Shown: in pieces, positions 1,500 to 60,567 of the stretch | How the letters are laid out: each line of letters opens with the position of its first letter | How positions within the stretch are numbered: position 1 is the first letter of the stretch | Origin: Bizionia saleffrena | GTDB lineage: Bacteria; Bacteroidota; Bacteroidia; Flavobacteriales; Flavobacteriaceae | Length of the DNA: 64,000 nt | Assembly: GCF_008086175.1 (NCBI RefSeq) | Contig: NZ_VSKM01000005.1 | Coordinates: forward strand, 227,937 to 291,936 | Reading direction: 5' to 3' | Notes under the pieces: generated by a model | What the model saw: the letters and a program-made list of their open reading frames with translations, nothing else | Told to the model about the DNA's origin: nothing | Databases searched by the model: none | Program-made: the position numbers and the translations under genes

Positions 1500-2324
1500 A
1501 TGAAGAAAGCGTCAATTTTATTACTGTTTGTAGTTGTATTAAGCTCATGTGTTTCAAAAAAGAAATACGTGGCCCTACAACAAGAAAACGGAGAAATTAA
1601 AAGTGAGTTAACAAAAGTAAGAGTAGAAAACGAAGATTTAGAAGCGAAATTTGGTATCATTCAAATGAGAGTGGACGAATACAATAGCAAGATAACCGAG
1701 TTAAAAGAGGATAACGATGTAAAATTTGATGCTGTTGGAGATGTGGCTGTGATATCTAACGTCACCAAAAGAAAAATGAGAGAAACCTTAAAAAAGGTAG
1801 ATCCAAGTCTTTTAAACGACGCTAAAACCTTACAAGATTCTATGAATTTAGCGGTGTCTTATAACTTGAGAAAGAATTTAGATACCAGCGATTTAAATGA
1901 AGACGACGATATTTCTATTAGTATTGATGAAACTGTTGTTATGATTTCTATTTCAGATAAATTATTGTTTAATACTGGGAGTTACCGCGTAAGTAACAAA
2001 GCGAACAACATTTTACAAAAATTAGCCGATGTAATAAACTCTGAGCCAAGCTTAGAGGTTATGGTAGAAGGACACACAGATGCAAGATCTATTAGTACGC
2101 CACAGATTGCAGATAACTGGGATTTAAGCGTGCTACGTGCTACGTCTGTAGTAAGAAAATTACAAAACCAATACAATGTTGCGCCAGAAAAATTAATAGC
2201 AGCGGGAAGAAGTAGTTATAAGCCGTTATTTGAAAATGACTCAAACGATAACAGGTCTAAGAACAGAAGAACTCGTGTTGTTATTCTTCCAAATATCAAT
2301 AAGTTTTTTGCCTTAATGGAGTAA
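1500..2324 (+). CDS. OmpA-family peptidoglycan-binding lipoprotein
   Basis: The N-terminus is a lipoprotein signal ending in LSSC, with Cys17 as the predicted lipidated residue. Residues about 22-80 are a heptad-rich coiled coil. The C-terminal half (about 150-270) is an OmpA/MotB domain with the typical VEGHTDARS motif, the NWDLSVLRA helix and the closing RRTRVVIL segment. Such proteins hold the outer membrane to peptidoglycan. The gene stands alone between two terminators, so it is probably monocistronic. It ends convergent to the small minus-strand gene at 2401-2496, and the two appear to share the hairpin at 2353-2390. Confidence 0.92.
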   Translation: MKKASILLLFVVVLSSCVSKKKYVALQQENGEIKSELTKVRVENEDLEAKFGIIQMRVDEYNSKITELKEDNDVKFDAVGDVAVISNVTKRKMRETLKKVDPSLLNDAKTLQDSMNLAVSYNLRKNLDTSDLNEDDDISISIDETVVMISISDKLLFNTGSYRVSNKANNILQKLADVINSEPSLEVMVEGHTDARSISTPQIADNWDLSVLRATSVVRKLQNQYNVAPEKLIAAGRSSYKPLFENDSNDNRSKNRRTRVVILPNINKFFALME

Positions 2325-2352
2325 GAAGAGACAAGAACAGCAGTATATTTTT

Positions 2353-2390
2353 AAAAAAGTGTAGTCATTTAACAGGGCTACACTTTTTTT
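2353..2390. terminator. Bidirectional intrinsic terminator
   Basis: A 12-bp stem (2353-2364 with 2378-2389) has A runs on its left and T runs on its right, so it can stop transcription both from the OmpA gene and, on the other strand, from the small gene at 2401-2496. Confidence 0.85.
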
Positions 2391-2400
2391 ATATAAGATC

Positions 2401-2496
2401 TTAAAAGATAAGTGTAAAAATATTAATGATAATAACAACTGTAGCGAATATCATGATACCGAGAATAAACCATTTGTTTGTTTCCATATTTTCCAT
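2401..2496 (-). CDS. 31-aa single-pass membrane peptide
   Basis: This minus-strand reading frame encodes 31 residues: a short polar start (MENMETNKW) followed by an almost wholly hydrophobic segment (FILGIMIFATVVIIINIF and on), compatible with one membrane span. An internal Met4 could also be the start. Context supports it as a real gene: about 90 bases upstream is one of four copies of a conserved promoter-like module (2579-2640), and directly downstream is a bidirectional terminator. I do not recognise the family. No Shine-Dalgarno sequence is seen, which is normal for this phylum. It could act as a small membrane effector or toxin-like peptide, but nothing in the sequence decides this. Confidence 0.5.
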   Translation of the reverse strand: MENMETNKWFILGIMIFATVVIIINIFTLIF

Positions 2497-2578
2497 AATA
2501 AAAAGTTTTAAAGTGAAAACTCATTTTTAAATTTAGAGTTTACTTTAATTTAAAACCTAAGTAATTGAGGTCTTGTAG

Positions 2579-2640
2579 ATTAATAGCATTACAAAAATAC
2601 TAAAAGTAATAGTTCTTTACAATACGAGTAATTACGTAAA
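2579..2640 (-). promoter_or_regulatory. 62-bp promoter/operator module, copy 1
   Basis: Most diverged of four equal-length copies. Read on the minus strand it has TTTACGTAATTAC at its upstream end and TGCTATTAAT at its downstream end, with a weaker -7-like element between. It precedes the 31-aa peptide gene rather than a compact terminated transcript. Confidence 0.6.
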
Positions 2641-2668
2641 ACTCTGGTTCTTAATAAGTTTTAGTTGT

Positions 2669-2731
2669 AAAAGGCTAAAGCTGATACGCGCTAGAGCTTT
2701 TTATGTTGGTTATTGAAATAGTGATTAATAG
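2669..2731 (-). ncRNA. Candidate small RNA C of tandem array
   Basis: Predicted transcript starting a few bases downstream of the -7-like element of module copy 2. It would be about 60 nt and contains no ATG-initiated frame of note. Its terminator is weaker than in the two sister units: a 6-bp stem AAAGCT/AGCTTT and a short T run about three bases later. Ends are inferred from alignment with the sister units. Confidence 0.4.
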
Positions 2732-2785
2732 CACTATAAATGTAAGTTCTTTAAGTCTTAAATGAAATACGTACAACTACTTAAT
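2724..2785 (-). promoter_or_regulatory. 62-bp promoter/operator module, copy 2
   Basis: On the minus strand: TAGTTGTACGTATTTCAT, then about 19 variable bases, then TTACATTTATAGTGCTATTAAT. TACATTTA resembles the Bacteroidota -7 element TAnnTTTG, and the paired TACGTA-like half sites lie upstream of it, where an activator would bind. Confidence 0.65.
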
Positions 2786-2796
2786 CTGTAGAACAT

Positions 2797-2868
2797 AAAA
2801 AAGCCCTGTAGTGAAACACTGCAGAGCTCTGTTGGGTTATTTATTCTTTCAATACTGTTGATTAATAG
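2797..2868 (-). ncRNA. Candidate small RNA B of tandem array
   Basis: A predicted transcript of about 70 nt from module copy 3. It ends in a strong intrinsic terminator: a 12-position stem with one mismatch (2802-2813 with 2817-2828), a three-base loop and six Ts. There is no start codon in it. The combination of a conserved promoter module, a short unconserved body and a terminator is what a small RNA gene looks like. Confidence 0.6.
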
Positions 2869-2922
2869 CACAGTAAAGGTATACTCTTTTTTGCTAAAAT
2901 GAAATACGTAGAACTACGTAAA
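2861..2922 (-). promoter_or_regulatory. 62-bp promoter/operator module, copy 3
   Basis: On the minus strand: TACGTAGTTCTACGTATTTC (two TACGTA half sites), about 20 variable bases, then a TATACCTTTACTG -7-like region and GCTATTAAT. The length is exactly that of copies 2 and 4. Confidence 0.65.
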
Positions 2923-2949
2923 TTTTGTTTTGGGGTGAAGAATAAAAGC

Positions 2950-3023
2950 AAAAAAAAACTCCGCAACACTAGAATAGAATTGCAGAGGATTAGTTGATTT
3001 TTCCCTAAAAAAACCATTAATAG
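2950..3023 (-). ncRNA. Candidate small RNA A of tandem array
   Basis: A predicted transcript of about 74 nt from module copy 4, the unit nearest the response regulator gene. It ends in a clear intrinsic terminator: an 8-bp stem (2959-2966 with 2980-2987, one G-T pair) and nine Ts at 2950-2958. A 50-codon frame starting inside it runs through the terminator into the next promoter module, so I treat the RNA as non-coding. Confidence 0.6.
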
Positions 3024-3077
3024 CACTGTAAATGTATGGTGAATTTATAAGATATGAAATACGTATAATTACGTAAT
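3016..3077 (-). promoter_or_regulatory. 62-bp promoter/operator module, copy 4
   Basis: On the minus strand: TACGTAATTATACGTATTTC, a variable 20-base stretch, then TACATTTACAGTGCTATTAAT. The TACGTA-N4-TACGTA arrangement is an inverted repeat of the kind bound by dimeric NarL/LuxR-type regulators, and such a regulator is encoded immediately upstream. Confidence 0.65.
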
Positions 3078-3105
3078 ATAAAGAAACACCTTACTAAGAT
3101 GTTGC

Positions 3106-3747
3106 TTATACGGTCTCTAAAAGTTCTTTGTTTAGGGTAGACCAGATCATTAAAGCATTGTGAGATTTTTGGAGTTTCAGTTTTTTAACAATGTTACTTC
3201 TATGTTTTTCAACCGTTCTCACCGAACAGTTTAAATGTTCTGCAATTTCATTACTCGACAGACTGGACGATAGTAGCTTCACAATTTTTAATTCAGATTT
3301 TGTAAGAAGTGCAATTAGACTCTTATCGGTGTATGTTATTTTGGAATTAAGATACGAGGCAATTTCTTCACTAAAATAAGGTTCGCCACGCTTAGTATGC
3401 TCTATACACGTTTCAATCTCTTCAATAGCAAACTCTTTTAAGATATAGCCGTAAACGTTATATTCCTTTGCTTTATCGTACAAGTGCTCTTCATTATCAA
3501 AAGTAATCAGTATCACTTTTGTTCTTAAATTGTTTTTCTTACACTCGTAAGCCACTTCCAAACCTGTTAAGTAAGGCATTCGTATGTCTAAAATGGCAAT
3601 ATCGGGATCGTGCTTTACTATTAAATTATAGGCGGTTCTACCATCTTCAGCTTTACCCAAAATAGTATAGCCTTTAGAAGATATAAAGTCGCTTAAACCT
3701 CTTAACATTAAGGGGTGGTCGTCTGCAATTACAATAGTAGCACTCAT
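3106..3747 (-). CDS. NarL/FixJ-type response regulator (no cognate kinase nearby)
   Basis: This 213-aa protein has a receiver domain at about 3-120 with the acidic pair D9/D10, phosphoacceptor D54 (AILDIRMP) and the conserved Lys in YILKEF. A LuxR-type helix-turn-helix follows at about 143-205 (LTKSELKIVKLL, then NCSVRTVEKHRSNI). It should bind DNA as a dimer after phosphorylation. It is the last gene of the PKD-CHAT-aspartic protease run, 49 bases after the protease gene, and no histidine kinase is adjacent. Four copies of a module with TACGTA inverted repeats lie directly downstream, so I infer that it regulates them. That link is positional only. Confidence 0.9.
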   Translation of the reverse strand: MSATIVIADDHPLMLRGLSDFISSKGYTILGKAEDGRTAYNLIVKHDPDIAILDIRMPYLTGLEVAYECKKNNLRTKVILITFDNEEHLYDKAKEYNVYGYILKEFAIEEIETCIEHTKRGEPYFSEEIASYLNSKITYTDKSLIALLTKSELKIVKLLSSSLSSNEIAEHLNCSVRTVEKHRSNIVKKLKLQKSHNALMIWSTLNKELLETV

Positions 3748-3796: not shown

Positions 3797-4249
3797 TTAT
3801 GCTTTTTTAGGTTTTAGATATAAGTATTTTTTGTCATAATCGATAATAGCTTTGGCTTTGTTTAAAATATCGGCGCCAATAATTCCGTTTACAGCTTGTG
3901 CATTATGAGTGGTTAATGCGGTGTTTACATGCACCAAATCGAATAAGATTAAAGTCACTTTCTCCGTCTCCCATTTACCTATTTTAATCGTATTTTTTTT
4001 CGATATTCTAGTGAGCATATTTGTAGCGCCGGCACCTGCAGCTTTTACATCTGATGCTTTTACTTTTAATTTAAAAAGCGTAGCATCCTCAAAGCCTATA
4101 CAGCTACTCGATGCGCCAGTGTCTAGAATAAAAAGCCCTTTAACACCGTTAATAGAGGCTTTTATTTCAAAATGATTCGTTTGAGTAAGTCTTAATTTTG
4201 TTTTTGTATATCCTTTATTAAGAAGAAATTCTTTGAGATCGTTTTTCAT
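3797..4249 (-). CDS. Retropepsin-like aspartic protease
   Basis: A 150-aa protein with the active-site motif DTGAS at residues 43-47 and, near the C-terminus, the Gly-rich segment GIIGADIL followed by a predicted strand, as in single-domain retropepsin-like proteases that work as homodimers. No signal peptide or membrane span is visible, so it is probably cytoplasmic. Its start codon lies inside the 3' end of the CHAT gene (32-base overlap in another frame), which suggests translational coupling. The next gene in the operon is the response regulator. The substrate is unknown; partners in the CHAT operon are obvious candidates (inference). Confidence 0.85.
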   Translation of the reverse strand: MKNDLKEFLLNKGYTKTKLRLTQTNHFEIKASINGVKGLFILDTGASSSCIGFEDATLFKLKVKASDVKAAGAGATNMLTRISKKNTIKIGKWETEKVTLILFDLVHVNTALTTHNAQAVNGIIGADILNKAKAIIDYDKKYLYLKPKKA

Positions 4250-6824
4250 ACCATTGCTTAAATAAACGCAGTAAAAGTACTACAAACAGAATTGAAATAA
4301 TAGTAATAACACCATAATTTATGTTATTATCTCGAAGCGGTTCTATGCTGCCATAAAATACGAAAGCGCTCCAGTAATAAGGCGATTTTTTTATATTACT
4401 GATGTTTTTATCCTCTAAATAAGCAATTTTTGAACGGTGATTTGCGTGAGAAGCCGAACTAGTTTTTCCATAATCATTATAAAATAATTCCATAATTTTC
4501 GCCGTTGAAGCATCGCTAATTTGCCATAGTGAAAACAATATAGTCTCCGCGCCAGCATAATTAAATCCTCTTGCCAAGCTCATAGGACCTTCACCCTTAG
4601 TCAATTTGCCAATACCCGTTTCGCAAGCGCTTAAAACGACTAATTTTGGCGAAATGTTTAACGCGTATAGTTCGTTTAGGTATAGGGTTTCATCTGAAAA
4701 CTCAATATGAGCGGGCACAATAAAATCGCCACTACTAGCGTGGGTGGAAAGATGTAAAATATTATACTGAGAGGCGTAATCTAAAAAACTTTGTTTTGTT
4801 GCCGAATGGTACATTAAAAATTTAGCATCTACCTCTTGCTCTATGCTTTTAGCCTCATTAATCGTGTATTTTAACGCGTTGGTAGTGCCTTCAAATACAG
4901 GGAATACACCGAGTAAATGATCTCCCGATTCGTGCTTTTTGTTTTTTAAAAAAAAGTAAGCACTCGAATTATAAACGATAGTGTGTTGCCTTACCATAAA
5001 TGGCATTTTGCTATAATTAGATGTTTCTGTATGTTTTGTGAGTAAGGCTTCAAAAGGAATAAAATTAAGTAAGCCGTCGGGAATAATAACGATATTTTTA
5101 TTATGCTGAAGGGGGGCTAATTGAAGCCTTTTGTACACTGAAAATGCTTGAGCACGATAGTCTGAAACATCATTATTTATAGCCGATGCATCGTTAAATA
5201 AAGTAATAAACCCCCGTAGGGATTCCTTTGTTTTATTATTTAAATTAATAGCGTTTAGAGTTGTGGTGTTATCCGTGAATATAAACTGATAGATGTTTTC
5301 TTTACCATAAAAATAAGCGACTAAAGCCGCGTCATCTACCAAAAGTCTTTGTTTTAAAACAGGAATGTTAATACGGTCATTGACTGAAAAATTATAACGC
5401 GTTTGAATTATTTTTTGAGCTGTTCTCAATGCAATATTAATACTGTTTAAAGAGTCTCTAACTTCTGAAAGGTTTTCTGTCTGCGTTCGCTGATAAGGCG
5501 TTCTAATAAGCCGGTTTGTTAATTGCTCTTGTGTTTTTAATAGCCATTGTTCTTCAATTAATAAAGTATCGCTAGGGTGTGCTTTTAGCAACTCTTTTTT
5601 CGAGTGATTTTCTTTTAATATAGACGCTTTACTGTTTTCGGCATATTGAAAAGCGCGTGTGGTATAACTTGTATTTGCGCTTTTAGATTCAAGCTGATAT
5701 AATAAAGCGATACATTTTTCACTACGTATTCTATTGGCCGCTATTTCTACCATATTGGCCTCTTGCGACGTAATCTGGGCATTGAGTAAATTAGAAACAT
5801 AAAAACTCAAATCGTAATATTGCAATGCCATTTCAGGGGTGTCTTGTAAGGCGGCTAAGGCATCGAAGATTTCAATAAAGGTGTTTTCTGGATACAGGTG
5901 GTTTGTTTTTGGGAGGCTGTTCTTGTCGTATTTAGGAAGTAAAAGGGATACCCCTAGTTGTAAGGCGTTTTTAGCTTCTTCATTTTGGTTTAATAAAGTG
6001 TATAGCTTTGCTTCCTCGTGTTTTAATTTCGCTAGTTCTCGAGCTGAAGTTAAATCGTTCTGCCAATAGTGCATTGAAGATTTAAAGAGGTATAGTGCCG
6101 TTTCGTAATCTTTGTGCTGCATAGCAGTAGTATAGGCTACTTGCTCATTTTTAAAATGGAAACCTATATTAGAGGCTTTGTTTTTAGAGGTGCCAATAGC
6201 TGTTTTGTTTCCTTTTAAAGTTATACTGCTATTCGCTTTAATTTGTTTAAGTCTTTGATATTCTCGTGAGTTTGGTGCCGCGATTTTCAATCCGTTATTA
6301 GCGACTTCTATGGCTAAAGTGTGTTTACCTAGTTTTTGATATAAGTTGGCCAAATTTACCGCGCCAATAGCTTGTTGCTGTGTATTATTTTGCTTTTTGG
6401 CTAATGCGATATAATATTTAATCGTGTTTTCAGCATTGGTGTAATTATTTGTTTTGTGATATAATACGCCCAAATTAATTAAGCAATTCTCGATGATATC
6501 GTATTGAAAAATAGTATTTATTTTTTCCTTTTTATACAAGCTCCAAGCGTCTTCGTAAGTAGAAATAGCCGATTGATAACTTTGGTTTTGTTCTAGGTAA
6601 TAGGCTTTATTAATGAGAAGGTTAACAAAGGCTAGATAATCGTCTTTAGACTGTAATTCAGCTTCAAAAGCACTAATTTCAACGTTTAAAGTTGCTAAGG
6701 CTTCCGTAGTTTGTTGCGTGTTAAAAACTGCAGTAGCGCTATAAATGCGATCTTCTATCGTCTGAGAATAGAGACTTCCGCTAATGATAAAATAGAAAAC
6801 AAGTAAGAGGGACTTCATCAGCAA
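4218..6824 (-). CDS. Exported TPR-CHAT domain protease-like protein with C-terminal membrane anchor
   Basis: This 868-aa protein begins with a signal peptide (LLLVFYFIISGSLYS). Tetratricopeptide-like helical repeats fill about residues 25-440. The CHAT domain (caspase/separase-related cysteine peptidase fold) occupies about 540-825, with the expected catalytic pair: His695 in HLSTHA and Cys734 in LSACETG. One transmembrane segment lies at about 838-858, followed by a short basic tail. The peptidase domain is therefore predicted to be in the periplasm, tethered to the inner membrane. It follows the PKD protein gene by 44 bases and overlaps the aspartic protease gene. Both catalytic residues are present, so activity is plausible; the target and activating signal are unknown. 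Confidence 0.9.
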   Translation of the reverse strand: MLMKSLLLVFYFIISGSLYSQTIEDRIYSATAVFNTQQTTEALATLNVEISAFEAELQSKDDYLAFVNLLINKAYYLEQNQSYQSAISTYEDAWSLYKKEKINTIFQYDIIENCLINLGVLYHKTNNYTNAENTIKYYIALAKKQNNTQQQAIGAVNLANLYQKLGKHTLAIEVANNGLKIAAPNSREYQRLKQIKANSSITLKGNKTAIGTSKNKASNIGFHFKNEQVAYTTAMQHKDYETALYLFKSSMHYWQNDLTSARELAKLKHEEAKLYTLLNQNEEAKNALQLGVSLLLPKYDKNSLPKTNHLYPENTFIEIFDALAALQDTPEMALQYYDLSFYVSNLLNAQITSQEANMVEIAANRIRSEKCIALLYQLESKSANTSYTTRAFQYAENSKASILKENHSKKELLKAHPSDTLLIEEQWLLKTQEQLTNRLIRTPYQRTQTENLSEVRDSLNSINIALRTAQKIIQTRYNFSVNDRINIPVLKQRLLVDDAALVAYFYGKENIYQFIFTDNTTTLNAINLNNKTKESLRGFITLFNDASAINNDVSDYRAQAFSVYKRLQLAPLQHNKNIVIIPDGLLNFIPFEALLTKHTETSNYSKMPFMVRQHTIVYNSSAYFFLKNKKHESGDHLLGVFPVFEGTTNALKYTINEAKSIEQEVDAKFLMYHSATKQSFLDYASQYNILHLSTHASSGDFIVPAHIEFSDETLYLNELYALNISPKLVVLSACETGIGKLTKGEGPMSLARGFNYAGAETILFSLWQISDASTAKIMELFYNDYGKTSSASHANHRSKIAYLEDKNISNIKKSPYYWSAFVFYGSIEPLRDNNINYGVITIISILFVVLLLRLFKQWYEKRSQRISS

Positions 6825-45928: not shown

Positions 45929-47646
45929 GTTTAAAAATAGATAGAATTAAGTATGCCAATATGTACGGCCCTACAGTTGGCGATAAAATAAGATTAGGAG
46001 ACACTGAACTATTTATTGAAATTGAAAAGGATTTCACGTATTATGGTGAAGAAAATAAATTTGGTGGTGGTAAAACCGTTCGTGATGGAATGGCACAATC
46101 TAGTACAGCAACCCGCGATAGTGGTGTTTTAGATTTAGTAATCTTAAACGCTACTGTTTTAGATCATTGGGGTATTGTAAAAGGGGATATCGGTATCAAA
46201 GACGGTAAAATTGTTGGTGTTGGAAAAGCCGGGAATCCTGATACAATGGAGAACGTTGATCTAAATATGATTATCGGTGCGTCTACCGAGGTACATAGTG
46301 GAGAAAACCTTATCGCAACGCCAGGAGGAATAGATTCACATATTCACTTTATATCACCACAACAAATAGAGCACGCTCTTTATAGTGGTATTACGACTAT
46401 GATTGGTGGTGGAACAGGACCTTTCGACGGTACCAATGCCACAACCGTAACGCCAGGAGCTTGGAATATTGAACGTATGCTGCAAGCAACAGATAATCTT
46501 CCTATGAATATAGGCTTCTTCGGAAAAGGAAATTGCTCTCATTTAGCGCCTTTAAAAGAACAAATTGAAGCTGGAGCATTAGGTTTAAAAATACACGAAG
46601 ATTGGGGAGCAACCGCATCTGTTATAGATGCGGCATTAACAGTTGCCGATGAATATGATATTCAAGTAGCCCTGCACTCTGACACCTTAAATGAGGCTGG
46701 TTTTTTAGAAGATACTATCGATGCTATAAACGGAAGAACCATCCACACCTTCCATACCGAAGGTGCAGGAGGCGGACACGCGCCAGATATTATTAAAGCA
46801 GCAATGTATCCAAACGTATTGCCAGCCTCTACAAACCCAACGCGTCCATTTACTAAAAACACCATCGATGAGCATTTAGATATGCTAATGGTGTGTCACC
46901 ATTTAAGTAAAAGCATCCCGGAAGATGTTGCTTTTGCCGATTCTAGAATTAGACCAGAAACCATCGCAGCCGAAGATATTCTTCAAGATATGGGCGTTTT
47001 TAGTATTATGAGTTCCGATTCGCAAGCTATGGGACGTGTTGGAGAAACCATCTCAAGAACATGGCAAACAGCGCATAAGAATAAGATTCAACAAGGGTTT
47101 TTAGAAGAAGATAAAGAAATGGAAGCTGATAACTTCCGTGCAAAACGTTATGTAGCTAAATACACGATTAATCCTGCGATTGCTCACGGTGTTTCTCATC
47201 ATGTAGGTTCTATCGAACCAGGTAAAATGGCAGATCTTGTACTTTGGAAACCGGCTTTATTTGGTGCAAAACCAGAGATGATTGTTAAAGGAGGTATGTG
47301 TATTGCAAGTAAAATGGGAGATCCAAACGGGTCTATTCCAACACCACAACCCGTTATGATGCGTCCAATGTTTGGAGGTCTAGGTTCAGCGGTACATAAA
47401 ACATGTGCAACTTTCGTTTCTAAAGCGGCAATGACTAATAATGTAAAAGAAAAATACGGATTGAAAAAGCAATTATTTGCGGTATCAAACTGTAGAAATA
47501 TTTCTAAGAAAGATTTAATTCATAACGACAAAACACCAGTTATAGATGTTAATCCAGAAACTTATGAAGTAAAAGTAGATGGTGTAAAAGTAACCTGTGA
47601 GGCTATTGACACAGTGCCATTAGCACAACGTTACTTTTTATTTTAG
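45925..47646 (+). CDS. ureC: Urease subunit alpha (catalytic)
   Basis: A 573-aa amidohydrolase-fold protein. The dinuclear nickel site is visible: [10 protein letters not shown] for the first His pair, Lys222 in GLKIHEDWG (carbamylated bridging ligand), the later His residues, and the flap His in [13 protein letters not shown]. It hydrolyses urea to ammonia and carbamate. The last gene before the hairpin at 47657-47695. Confidence 0.98.
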
Positions 47647-51147: not shown

Positions 51148-52119
51148 ATGGTTAAAAAAATTAAACAATTTAGTGTAATTAATCTTAAAGGTATTGCTCA
51201 AATAATGCTACAAGAGAATGCTATTACAGGATTACTTTTTCTTTTGGGTGTATTATACAACTCTTGGTTAATGGCAATCGGTTTAGTGATAGCAACAATA
51301 ACCGGCAGCGTTTCAGGTTATTTACTTAGTAAAAAAAATTATAAAGCTCTTAATCAAGGGCTTTATGGTTTTAATGCGGCTTTAATAGGAATAATTATTG
51401 TCTATAAATACGGTTTATCCTGGGAGTCTGTTTTTAGTATTATTGTGGCTTCAGTGATTGCGACATTAATAATGCATTTCGCTATTATTAAAAACCTTCA
51501 GGTCTTTACATTTCCTTTTGTTGTGATGGGGTGGGTGGTTGTCTCGCTTGTGAATACAACAAATTTTATGCCTTTAGTACAACATCCCACTGCCGAAGAG
51601 GATTTTTTACAAGAACCTACGGCTGAGATGTTTGAAGACGCGCTAGAGCAAGTCGGAATCGAGTACGACGATGATAGAATAGATGATGATCTTATTTTTT
51701 CCACGCACGGTTTCGGACAAGTAATGTTTCAAGGAAGTTTAATCGCGGGATTGTTATTTCTATTCGGAGTTTACGTTAACAAACCTATTGCCGCATTGTA
51801 TGGCATTTTTGCTTCTATTTTGGCTATTTCAGTATCCCATTTACTTAATAGTCCCGAATCTTCAATAGATACAGGGATGTTTAGTTTTAATGCGGTGCTC
51901 TGTGCTCTCGCCTTTGCTGGAACCCGGCATAGAGATGGGTTTTGGGTAGTTTTAAGTACTGTAGTTACGGTGATTATAGATGACTATCTAATAAAAATAG
52001 GAGTGCCACCTTATACGTTTCCGTTTGTAGCTACAATGTGGATTTTATTGCTAACACGAAAAGGATTGGTAATTGTTGAAAACGCTTTTCCAGTTACAAA
52101 AAGAGAAACAGAAGATTAA
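51148..52119 (+). CDS. Urea transporter
   Basis: A 323-aa membrane protein made of two homologous halves (each with a pattern GLLFLLGVLYNSWLMA / GLLFLFGVYVNKPIA and LNQGLYGFNAALIGI / IDTGMFSFNAVLCAL), the inverted-repeat layout of channel-like urea transporters (UT family). A short acidic cytoplasmic or periplasmic insert (about 150-180) separates them. It imports urea for the urease encoded upstream and is 18 bases after the nickel permease gene, ending the operon. Confidence 0.9.
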   Translation: MVKKIKQFSVINLKGIAQIMLQENAITGLLFLLGVLYNSWLMAIGLVIATITGSVSGYLLSKKNYKALNQGLYGFNAALIGIIIVYKYGLSWESVFSIIVASVIATLIMHFAIIKNLQVFTFPFVVMGWVVVSLVNTTNFMPLVQHPTAEEDFLQEPTAEMFEDALEQVGIEYDDDRIDDDLIFSTHGFGQVMFQGSLIAGLLFLFGVYVNKPIAALYGIFASILAISVSHLLNSPESSIDTGMFSFNAVLCALAFAGTRHRDGFWVVLSTVVTVIIDDYLIKIGVPPYTFPFVATMWILLLTRKGLVIVENAFPVTKRETED

Positions 52120-58962: not shown

Positions 58963-59009
58963 AATTAAAAAGTAATTAAAGTCTTCAGTTAAGACAGGTG
59001 ATTAAAGCA

Positions 59010-59036
59010 AAAAACCCCGGCAGGGCCGGGGTTTTT
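59010..59036 (-). terminator. Intrinsic terminator of ALDH gene, copy 2
   Basis: Identical in sequence to the hairpin at 52431-52457. Confidence 0.9.
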
Positions 59037-59064
59037 ATTATAAACTTTTAGTAAAAAGTCTTAA

Positions 59065-60567
59065 TTAAAAGAATCCAACTGGTTTCTTGTCGTAAGAGAT
59101 TAACATGTTTTTTACAACACGGTAATGATCTAAAGCCATTTTATGGTTTTCACGACCGAATCCTGATTCTTTTACACCACCAAACGGAGCGTGAGCAGGG
59201 TACGTATTGTATTGGTTTACCCAAACTCTACCCGCTTTAATAGCACGAGGAACTTGGAATAATTCGTGAGCATCACGAGACCAGACACCGGCACCTAAAC
59301 CGTAAGGCGTATCGTTTGCGATAGCGATAGCTTCTTCAGTAGAACTGAAAGTTGTTAAAGCGACAACTGGACCAAAAATTTCTTCTTGGAAGACACGCAT
59401 ATCGTTCGTACCTTTTAAAACTGTAGGTTGTATGTAATATCCGTTAGAAATTTCACCGTCGTAATTTCCAGCGTCTCCACCAGCTAATACTTCTGCACCT
59501 TCTTCTTTACCGATGTTAATATAACCTAAGATTTTGTCGTATTGTGCTTTAGACACTTGAGAACCAATCATAGTTTCTGGATCAAGCGGATTTCCTTTTT
59601 GAACTAATTTTAGTCGTGCTTGCATTCTTTCTATAAAAAGATCAGCAATATCTTCGTGAACTAAAATACGTGAAGGAGTGGTACAAATTTCCCCTTGATT
59701 AAGTGCGAACATTAACGCGCCTTCAATAGCTTTACTAAAGAATTCGTCGTCTTGATCTGCTACTGAAGGGAAGAAGATGTTGGGAGATTTCCCACCTAAT
59801 TCCATAGTTACAGGAATAATGTTTTCGGCTGCATTGTGTAAAACTTTACGGCCTGTTTCAGTAGAACCAGTAAATGAAAGTTTTGCAATACGTTTAGACG
59901 TTGCTAAAGCTGCACCAGCTTCGGCACCAAAACCAGTTACGATGTTTAATACACCTGCTGGTAAAATGTCACCAATAAGTTCCATTAAAGCAATAACACT
60001 AGTAGGCGTTTGTTCTGCTGGTTTTACAACCGCTGTACACCCTGCTGCTAAAGCTGGAGCAATTTTCCAAGCTAACATTAACATAGGGAAGTTCCAAGGA
60101 ATGATTTCCCCAACAACACCAACAGGTTCGTTTAAAACGATGCTTAATGTATTTTTATCATGTTCAGAGATGCTTCCTTCGTCTGCACGAATAACACCTG
60201 CGAAATAACGAAAGTGATCAATACAGTAAGGGATATCTGCTGCACGAGCTTCACGAATTGGTTTCCCATTATCGATAGTTTCTAAAGTTGCTAAGTATTC
60301 AAGGTTATCCTCCATTACTTGAGCAATCTTTAATAGCATATTGCTACGATCTGTTGCTGAAGACGTACTCCAAGATGGAAACGCTTCGTGTGCTGCATCA
60401 AGAGCAAGATCAACATCTTCTTGTGTTGAACGCGCCGCTTGAGTAAATACTTTACCATCTACTGGAGATACGTTATCGAAATACTCACCTTTAACAGGGG
60501 CTACGAATTTACCGCCAATAAAATTCCCATATCTTTCTTTGAATACAGGTTTAGTTACATTTGCCAT
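59065..60567 (-). CDS. NAD(P)-dependent aldehyde dehydrogenase, copy 2
   Basis: A 500-aa protein identical to the gene product at 52486-53988 except for one residue (Ala in AIAIAND). Same active-site Cys in NQGEICTTPSR and the same AldB/ExaC-type C-terminus. This copy lies 216 bases downstream of an AraC regulator gene on the same strand, with its promoter and two GGTTCAAT boxes between. It is therefore the copy with its regulator. Confidence 0.93.
   Translation of the reverse strand: MANVTKPVFKERYGNFIGGKFVAPVKGEYFDNVSPVDGKVFTQAARSTQEDVDLALDAAHEAFPSWSTSSATDRSNMLLKIAQVMEDNLEYLATLETIDNGKPIREARAADIPYCIDHFRYFAGVIRADEGSISEHDKNTLSIVLNEPVGVVGEIIPWNFPMLMLAWKIAPALAAGCTAVVKPAEQTPTSVIALMELIGDILPAGVLNIVTGFGAEAGAALATSKRIAKLSFTGSTETGRKVLHNAAENIIPVTMELGGKSPNIFFPSVADQDDEFFSKAIEGALMFALNQGEICTTPSRILVHEDIADLFIERMQARLKLVQKGNPLDPETMIGSQVSKAQYDKILGYINIGKEEGAEVLAGGDAGNYDGEISNGYYIQPTVLKGTNDMRVFQEEIFGPVVALTTFSSTEEAIAIANDTPYGLGAGVWSRDAHELFQVPRAIKAGRVWVNQYNTYPAHAPFGGVKESGFGRENHKMALDHYRVVKNMLISYDKKPVGFF

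Follow-up and report, generated by a model that had tools for sequence, protein, structure and literature searches.

What do four repeated, promoter-like segments next to a response regulator (RR) gene without a kinase produce, and is it this regulator that drives them? The segments lie in a stretch of 64,000 nucleotides from Bizionia saleffrena (contig NZ_VSKM01000005.1, positions 227,937 to 291,936), here called the window. An initial annotation, made from the letters of the window, described them as tandem 62-bp promoter modules and suggested a set of small RNAs under one regulator. We consider it probable that the modules are RR-driven promoters for three short RNAs and for the mRNA of a microprotein. 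The features of the locus are listed below, with copies numbered so that copy 4 is nearest to the RR gene and copy 1 is distal.

3797..4249, minus strand: retropepsin-like aspartyl protease gene, the conserved upstream neighbour (PF13650).
3106..3747, minus strand: NarL-type RR gene, 213 aa, with a receiver and a LuxR/GerE helix-turn-helix (HTH) domain (Pfam).
3060..3075, minus strand: palindromic site of copy 4, TACGTAATTATACGTA, the predicted RR operator (sequence, pattern, weight matrix).
3029..3036, minus strand: -7-like box of copy 4, TACATTTA (sequence; the offset is identical in relatives).
2952..3024, minus strand: predicted small RNA (sRNA) of copy 4, about 73 nt, with GCUAUUAAU, a GGG-loop hairpin and a terminator at about 2959-2988 plus a U run (covariance model R1, fold).
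2905..2920, minus strand: palindromic site of copy 3, TACGTAGTTCTACGTA (sequence, pattern, weight matrix).
2874..2881, minus strand: -7-like box of copy 3, TACCTTTA (sequence).
2797..2869, minus strand: predicted sRNA of copy 3, about 73 nt, terminator at about 2803-2830 plus a U run (covariance model R1, fold).
2768..2783, minus strand: site of copy 2, TAAGTAGTTGTACGTA (sequence, weight matrix).
2737..2744, minus strand: -7-like box of copy 2, TACATTTA (sequence).
2668..2732, minus strand: predicted sRNA of copy 2, about 65 nt, with a weak terminator and an unrecognisable 5' hairpin (fold; weak R1 score).
2623..2638, minus strand: degenerate site of copy 1 (distal), TACGTAATTACTCGTA (weight matrix, 28.6 bits).
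2592..2599, minus strand: -7-like box of copy 1, TATTTTTG (sequence).
2497..2587, minus strand: predicted 5' UTR of the microprotein mRNA, which starts with GCUAUUAAU and has a weak hairpin (sequence; R1 20.4 bits, E 0.11).
2401..2496, minus strand: microprotein of 31 aa with a single transmembrane segment, MENMETNKWFILGIMIFATVVIIINIFTLIF, start codon predicted (like ORFs in relatives; pN/pS).
2353..2389, no strand assigned: inverted repeat with A/T runs on both sides (repeat search), probably a two-way terminator that separates the array from the convergent OmpA-like gene.

A repeat search over positions 2200-3600 returned one direct-repeat family, with four gapless 63-nt copies on the minus strand at 2577-2639, 2722-2784, 2859-2921 and 3014-3076, which agree with the reference copy at 60, 100, 79 and 71%, respectively. 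The array spans 2577-3076, just 3' of the RR gene. Read on the minus strand, in each module a TACGTA-N4-TACGTA-like palindrome precedes some 20 variable bases, which lead to a TAnnTTTA/G box and then to GCTATTAAT; the half sites show a TAAGTA variant in copy 2 and are degenerate in copy 1. A weight matrix built from 116 distinct strict modules, window copies 3 and 4 included, scored copies 4 to 1 at 62.6, 60.5, 52.6 and 28.6 bits, and had no other match of at least 14 bits on either strand of the whole 64-kb window. The four gapless promoter-like modules with palindromes, -7-like boxes and GCTATTAAT that had been annotated were thus recovered both by the repeat search and by the weight matrix. 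In place of the annotated 62 bp, the conserved block is 60 nt long, counted from TACGTA.

A generic E. coli-type promoter scan of the array gave no excess (4 vs 4.4 expected), and a generic terminator scan found none there above its threshold. In the folds, strong hairpins with U runs follow copies 3 and 4 and a weaker one follows copy 2, in agreement with the initial annotation. The general Bacteroidota promoter has the -7 element TAnnTTTG. The -33 element of the modules appears weak, or may be part of the palindrome tail CGTATTG, and a weak -33 element suits an activator-dependent promoter. The modules are very probably functional promoters.

The product of 3106-3747 carries a receiver (PF00072, E 1.4e-23) and a GerE/LuxR HTH (PF00196, E 9.8e-12), as expected of the NarL family, and its phosphorylation residues are intact: D9, D10, D54, T82 and K104 are kept in 81 of the 81 RR orthologs aligned. 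The RR presumably is phosphorylated and binds the palindromes. No kinase gene adjoins it in the window, so the locus does not hold a complete two-component system; the NarL-type regulator without a kinase upstream of the array was annotated correctly. In the window's genome (G000), the Aequorivita kinase had no match (E<=1e-20), and no second RR of this kind was found (E<=1e-30).

The linkage between module and regulator extends well beyond this strain. Of 397 Flavobacteriaceae genomes, 86 contained a strict pattern, TACGTA-N6-CGTATT-N21-25-TTTA-N4-GCTATTAAT, and none contained its reverse, used as a control. The RR (profile A1, E<=1e-50, at most seven best candidates scored per genome) was present in 176 of the 397 genomes and in 84 of the 86 with modules (Fisher p 1.9e-33, a value that ignores relatedness). 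In 30 of the 30 module loci examined the RR lay within 1.5 kb. Module and RR gene are linked, as far as gene order tells, and the conservation of the module next to this regulator is confirmed. The copies per locus ranged from one to eight (eight in G369), all four were present in both other congeners examined, and the module was 60 nt long in 138 of 139 strict matches at the loci examined.

The best 80 RR loci listed were taken as the named-locus set (81 with the window). The top match was a Bizionia MAG (92%), and further loci came from Lacinutrix, Olleya, Algibacter, Flavivirga, Winogradskyella, Aequorivita and other genera. Among these best 80 loci, 58 had at least one module of at least 25 bits 3' of the RR on the same strand; an additional minus-strand module match in L100 was the sole strand exception. 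The protease gene was found in the upstream flank of 79 of the 80, directly before the RR unless a kinase gene intervenes, and odhB in the downstream flank of 63, indicating the same locus throughout. The window's genus has the OmpA-like gene where relatives have odhB. In G065 and G073, the stretch from the protease gene to odhB contains modules but lacks an RR gene, which means that the neighbour is not strictly needed, that another RR acts, or that these loci are decaying.

Several sites outside the array resemble its operator. In L143, at about 1501-1518 (G000:C1:124521-124538), a perfect TACGTAGAACTACGTATT is accompanied by a TAAATTTG box spaced exactly as in the modules (positions 40-47), and precedes a gene for a predicted secreted protein of about 200 aa with no Pfam family above the cut-off. 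This gene is a possible second RR target in the window's genome. Allowing one mismatch, 21 other candidate RR sites were found in this genome vs 12 with the reversed control, so such sites are mostly background. TACGTA-N4-TACGTA-like sites also lie behind RR paralogs with adjacent paralogous kinases (near 1504 minus in L024 and near 1342 minus in L026), so this type of operator probably predates the array.

A kinase gene adjoins the RR in 21 of the best 80 loci, as found by tblastn with the TPR-HisKA_3-HATPase kinase of L107; the assignment is by similarity to that kinase, with Pfam run on two of the 21. Modules were present in 0 of these 21 loci, whereas the matrix found them in 58 of the 59 kinase-less loci, and inspection by eye showed two degenerate modules in the 59th (L137). 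The kinase was also searched for in the genomes of ten arrays. There was no match at E<=1e-20 in G000, G021, G007 and G015, the best match was a paralog next to a paralogous RR in G031, G016 and G030, and only weak matches (E 1e-22 to 1e-28) were seen in G019, G369 and G192. In the RR tree, one branch sets the 60 array rows apart from the rest (support 96/72; recovered in 97% of 200 bootstrap trees). The absence of the kinase and the presence of the array thus amount to one change of state on this tree, and since a single branch separates the groups, the 21 vs 59 split is not independent evidence for a causal tie. As to direction, we infer that the kinase was lost and the array gained. As a separate observation, a TPR-CHAT protein gene lies upstream of the RR in the window (4218-6824, minus), and a CHAT relative occurs within the 3-kb flank of 17 of the 59 kinase-less vs 0 of the 21 kinase loci among the best 80.

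Promoters of 13 of the 21 kinase-clade loci were examined, and all 13 have a single palindrome, TACGT(G/A)-N4-(C/T)ACGTA. In 12 of the 13, a -7 box at offset 43 is followed by an ATG at offset 51, which is the leaderless start of the microprotein and takes the position of GCTATTAAT in the array clade; the offset of 43 between site and -7 box is common to the array modules and these 12 loci. A stop follows soon after the ATG in L113, one of the 12, and neither site nor microprotein is present in L132. We consider it quite likely that the RR activates the modules.

The ORF behind the last module has counterparts in relatives, which are 30-53 aa long, have one hydrophobic run and follow the last module in most loci. 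By rule, it was found in 74 of the 81 loci, i.e., 57 of 59 kinase-less loci, 16 of 21 kinase loci and the window; the rule required Asn, and a false match in L135 was discarded. It was seen by eye in L133. A rule based on hydropathy alone returned 72 loci, and Asn stood among the apolar residues in 72 of 72. For 19 chosen close pairs, the pooled pS was 0.51 and pN 0.12 (pN/pS 0.24), with a dN/dS of about 0.16, a value that makes the ORF very likely a real gene. We have high confidence that the microprotein is made. The start codons of some members are uncertain, and Pfam held no family for the three members tested. In many array loci a hairpin also lies between the last module and the ATG, and therefore the last module may yield both a short RNA and the microprotein mRNA. 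Of the four modules annotated as a small-RNA array, copies 2-4 precede predicted RNAs and copy 1 precedes the 31-codon membrane ORF.

In relatives, the RNA bodies typically start with GCTATTAATTAGTTCTTAGGGAGAATTA, followed by a UUCUU-AGG-GAGAA hairpin and then by a terminator that ends about 65-75 nt in. From the best 80 loci 110 bodies were collected, of which 81 were distinct with the purine-rich motif and 64 were aligned; motif-less bodies were left out, so the sample favours the 5' hairpin. RNAalifold alone gave the terminator without the 5' hairpin, and the latter was added to the consensus structure from single folds. The paired cells amounted to 94.8% vs 84.8% in shuffled alignments and the covariation to 0.453 vs 0.248, which 0 of 500 shuffles reached, and slid structures gave at most 60.5% paired cells and a covariation of 0.141. 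Of the 14 terminator pairs, 11 had changed on both sides in at least one sequence. In the 5' hairpin the same was true of 5 of 8 pairs, in few sequences. The compensatory changes in the terminator hairpins make small RNAs very likely, and we have little doubt that RNAs are made from the modules. The initial annotation had argued for selection on regulation. The promoters are indeed conserved, but the RNA 5' end is strongly conserved in relatives too, which points to selection on the RNA and not on regulation alone. In four Winogradskyella loci (L117, L120, L127 and L136), the first RNA carries an additional 5' hairpin, UUAUUAAUUAAGGGUUAAUAA, after which GCUAUUAAUUAGUUCUUAGGGG appears a second time, as if two RNA starts were fused.

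The conserved 5' end is only partly recognisable in the window's own array. Covariance model R1 scored copy 4 at 45.1 bits (E 4.8e-6), copy 3 at 33.8 bits (E 4.7e-4), copy 1 at 20.4 bits (E 0.11) and copy 2 at 16.6 bits (E 0.51). Outside the array, an unrelated place in the window (59003-59072) scored 23.1 bits and another (51317-51372) 15.1 bits; since the former outscores copies 1 and 2, R1 does not tell these two copies from background. On these scores, the array of the window is a diverged corner of the RNA family. No further convincing copy was found by R1 in the window's genome, where four more matches were two places on both strands, without GCTATTAA. No family of Rfam 15 reached its gathering score at the array of the window or at the loci of six relatives, and membership of the array RNAs in an Rfam family was therefore rejected; the sub-threshold list for the array contained nothing consistent. 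Elsewhere in the window, at 46077-46375 on the minus strand, 5_ureB_sRNA (RF02514) matched with 53.7 bits, above its gathering score; this match may be the urease gene sequence itself.

A search with the complement of the hairpin met sRNA copies outside the RR locus. These lie behind the gene of a 256-aa PAS_3-GerE protein (PAS-LuxR), with a palindrome AATACTCAATTTGAGTATTG at the same place, and are convergent to a murF-like gene (identity by ORF reading). An operator-free pattern, TTTA-N4-GCTATTAAT-N3-TTCTTAGGGAGAATT, was present in 66 of 397 genomes, with 0 for the reversed control. At the 30 loci examined, the RR was found within 1.5 kb in 20, PAS-LuxR in 9 and neither in 1. Ten stretches with no RR listed nearby were chosen, and PAS-LuxR was present in nine (in L247 as an edge fragment) and absent in L256, where the RNA is present. 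The order in L251 is RR, sRNA, PAS-LuxR, sRNA. In L253, a near-identical RNA 5' part is found with another NarL RR (PF00072, PF00196) and the operator AATACCC...GGGTATTG, and PAS-LuxR with its own copy follows this third-operator RNA. L248 has an exact RNA copy with an operator like that of L253, near two further PAS-LuxR genes facing away. Between these regulator settings the terminators vary and the 5' end is constant. PAS-LuxR was found in 4 of 16 genomes searched, and in three of these four the gene is followed by an operator, a -7-like box, GCTATTA and the hairpin; there was none in three genomes of the window's genus (E<=1e-40). In L247, a lone sRNA copy (3964 minus, G177:C14) with an exact 5' end, an array-type terminator and no recognisable operator lies about 3.6 kb from the PAS-LuxR-linked copy.

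Hence the reading of the array as an sRNA set under one regulator fits the covariation and the RR linkage, but it is too narrow for the RNA 5' end, which also occurs behind other LuxR-type genes. The same RNA start behind several such genes suggests a common output for several signals, and we lean slightly towards the 28-nt 5' end being that output. With about the same modest leaning we propose a portable cassette, in which LuxR-type regulators (the kinase-less NarL RR, PAS-LuxR and another NarL RR at a third operator) would each drive the same or nearly the same 28-nt RNA 5' end through a palindrome of their own behind their own gene, as a shared signal line. In one lineage the cassette would have multiplied between the RR and its old target, a membrane microprotein, along the very branch of the RR tree that saw the kinase gene disappear.

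Our proposal for transcription and mode of action is deduced from these sequences. The active RR, probably a dimer, would bind the TACGTA-N4-TACGTA palindrome adjoining each -33 region and bring RNA polymerase to all modules together, so that module copy number would set the RNA dose. In the window, three of the four modules would give short terminated RNAs, and the last would give the mRNA of the 31-residue membrane protein. The RNAs of relatives would have the GCUAUUAAU start, usually the UUCUU-AGG-GAGAA hairpin, and a terminator of their own. Their functional part is probably the 5' portion of about 28 nt, since it is kept while terminators, operators and neighbouring regulators differ. The RNAs most likely would pair in trans with mRNAs, although we give base-pairing as the mode of action no better than an even chance. 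The microprotein would act in the inner membrane and might feed back on the pathway, and the RNA would pool several signals through the RR, PAS-LuxR and the third operator type.

Target searches gave no excess of pairing. The 10-nt hairpin complement had 35 matches in six genomes vs 52 for the reversed control; of 30 matches examined, ten were the sRNA's own antisense strand and one had an ORF start (74 aa) within 150 nt. For duplexes at the starts of 620 ORFs, the mean was -8.76 vs -8.72 for shuffled seeds, and 29 of 60 shuffles reached this value or a lower one. Among 128 ortholog pairs from two genomes, clpX (PF06689) ranked first, at -17.5 kcal/mol in the worse genome, and in 9 of 200 shuffled seeds the best pair was as low. 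The clpX start region AUUAAUGGC, at L273:5835 (G019) and L293:1109 (G289), pairs with the RNA 5' GCUAUUAAU. We regard clpX as a weak lead.

The RNAs could instead titrate a protein, with the repeated 5' hairpin as bait, like RsmX/Y/Z and CsrB for CsrA. GacA is a NarL-family RR above RsmX/Y/Z and CsrB, which titrate CsrA, and the RNAs described here are likewise multicopy and linked to an RR; in relatives the two arms of the hairpin and its AGGG loop show almost no variation, a constancy that perhaps exceeds the needs of a base-pairing seed. However, CsrA (PF02599) had no match in any of 37 genomes, G000 included, in a search that was positive in the controls E. coli, B. subtilis and T. maritima. 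Of these 37 genomes, the 23 from the family likewise had no match to RRM_1 (PF00076), which was found in 3 of the 14 that belong to other families of the order. Each RNA has one such hairpin, and the A(N)GGA motif usual for CsrA is not plain in it. We therefore consider protein titration unlikely. A CsrA sponge (Gac/Rsm membership) and a relationship to RbpB-FopS were rejected, as CsrA was not found in the 37 genomes and RRM_1 not in the 23, respectively. Still less probable is a repeat that binds protein and gives no transcripts. Direct repeats with regular spacing would suit it, but the fixed -7 geometry, terminators with compensatory changes, a single orientation with one exception in the best 80 loci, and conservation across genera make it highly improbable.

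Two further alternatives keep the promoters and change either the product or the driver. The modules may serve the microprotein alone, the extra copies being duplicated promoters with by-product transcripts or decoys that titrate the RR. In 12 of the 13 kinase loci examined, a single site precedes the microprotein gene, which is leaderless there, and the microprotein may therefore be the older output; in addition, the body of window copy 2 is weak. Against this, the RNA 5' end is kept across genera and the bodies have compensatory pairs, neither of which decoys need, and the RNA is found behind PAS-LuxR, beside the murF-like gene, with no microprotein noted there. We judge it quite improbable that the modules serve the microprotein alone. 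Equally doubtful is that another factor, e.g., a paralogous RR, drives the modules and that the adjacency is historical. The loci of G065 and G073, with modules and without the RR, and the paralogous RR genes with a like palindrome behind them would be explained in this way, but the RR is present in nearly all genomes with modules, the window's genome has four modules and yet no second such RR, and the kinase clade has likewise retained the operator. We thus prefer the RR as driver of short RNAs and of the microprotein mRNA.

To our knowledge, few Bacteroidota sRNAs outside Bacteroides have a known regulator. This RNA family can be counted across dozens of genera, with operator, RNA 5' end and microprotein each defined, and regulator, RNA and target are each open to single-deletion tests in harmless marine strains. 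If true, one RNA behind several regulators would be an unusual post-transcriptional merging of signals. The coupling of kinase absence to the array turns the activation of an orphan RR into a directly testable question, and the locus adds a microprotein gene of about 30-50 codons, a size often missed by gene callers. No description of the array was found in the open-licence papers searched.

Arrays of a similar kind are known from other bacteria. LhrC1-5 of Listeria monocytogenes are near-identical sRNAs with individual promoters, all dependent on LisR (PMC4132741). As here, several related RNAs with their own promoters are placed under one RR, and a short repeated motif is the functional part; LisR, however, pairs with a kinase (LisRK), whereas the RR here has none beside it. 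In the parts of PMC4132741 consulted, the LhrC motif is CU-rich and no terminal microprotein is mentioned, and Listeria belongs to a different phylum. The csRNAs of Streptococcus are five highly similar sRNAs under one RR, CiaR (PMC4507080, PMC8186281, by their excerpts); CiaRH keeps its kinase, and the array here adjoins the RR gene. Related RNAs, own promoters, the same regulator-type site and terminator structure, as in the LhrC and csRNA sets, were all found in the sequence here. In Nostoc, the NsiR1 array repeats an RNA of roughly 60 nt 12 times in tandem, and every copy has a promoter of its own that carries a common motif (PMC9045159). It shares tandem short RNAs, a promoter per copy and divergent copies at the periphery with the array, but has HetR-dependent DIF1 promoters, a first copy antisense to the hetF 5' UTR and, in the excerpt of that paper, no RR system. 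GacA-RsmX/Y/Z likewise combines a NarL-family RR with multiple hairpin sRNAs, and differs in its CsrA/RsmA, found here in 0 of 37 genomes; the system is named in PMC4132741. FopS of Bacteroides represents multicopy Bacteroidota sRNAs with a conserved 5' part followed by a terminator and with RbpB as partner (PMC11697453); in the excerpted text, its 5' part is single-stranded, its promoters are canonical and its partner is an RRM protein. Rfp18 of Flavobacterium psychrophilum is a conserved flavobacterial sRNA whose third stem-loop pairs with targets, and is set apart by description only, the excerpt of PMC9723704 describing it neither as an array nor as RR-linked. By analogy, and with no homology found, the array appears to work like those of LhrC, the csRNAs and NsiR1. 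It is set apart from them by an RR without a kinase, a terminal microprotein gene and an RNA 5' end common to other regulators.
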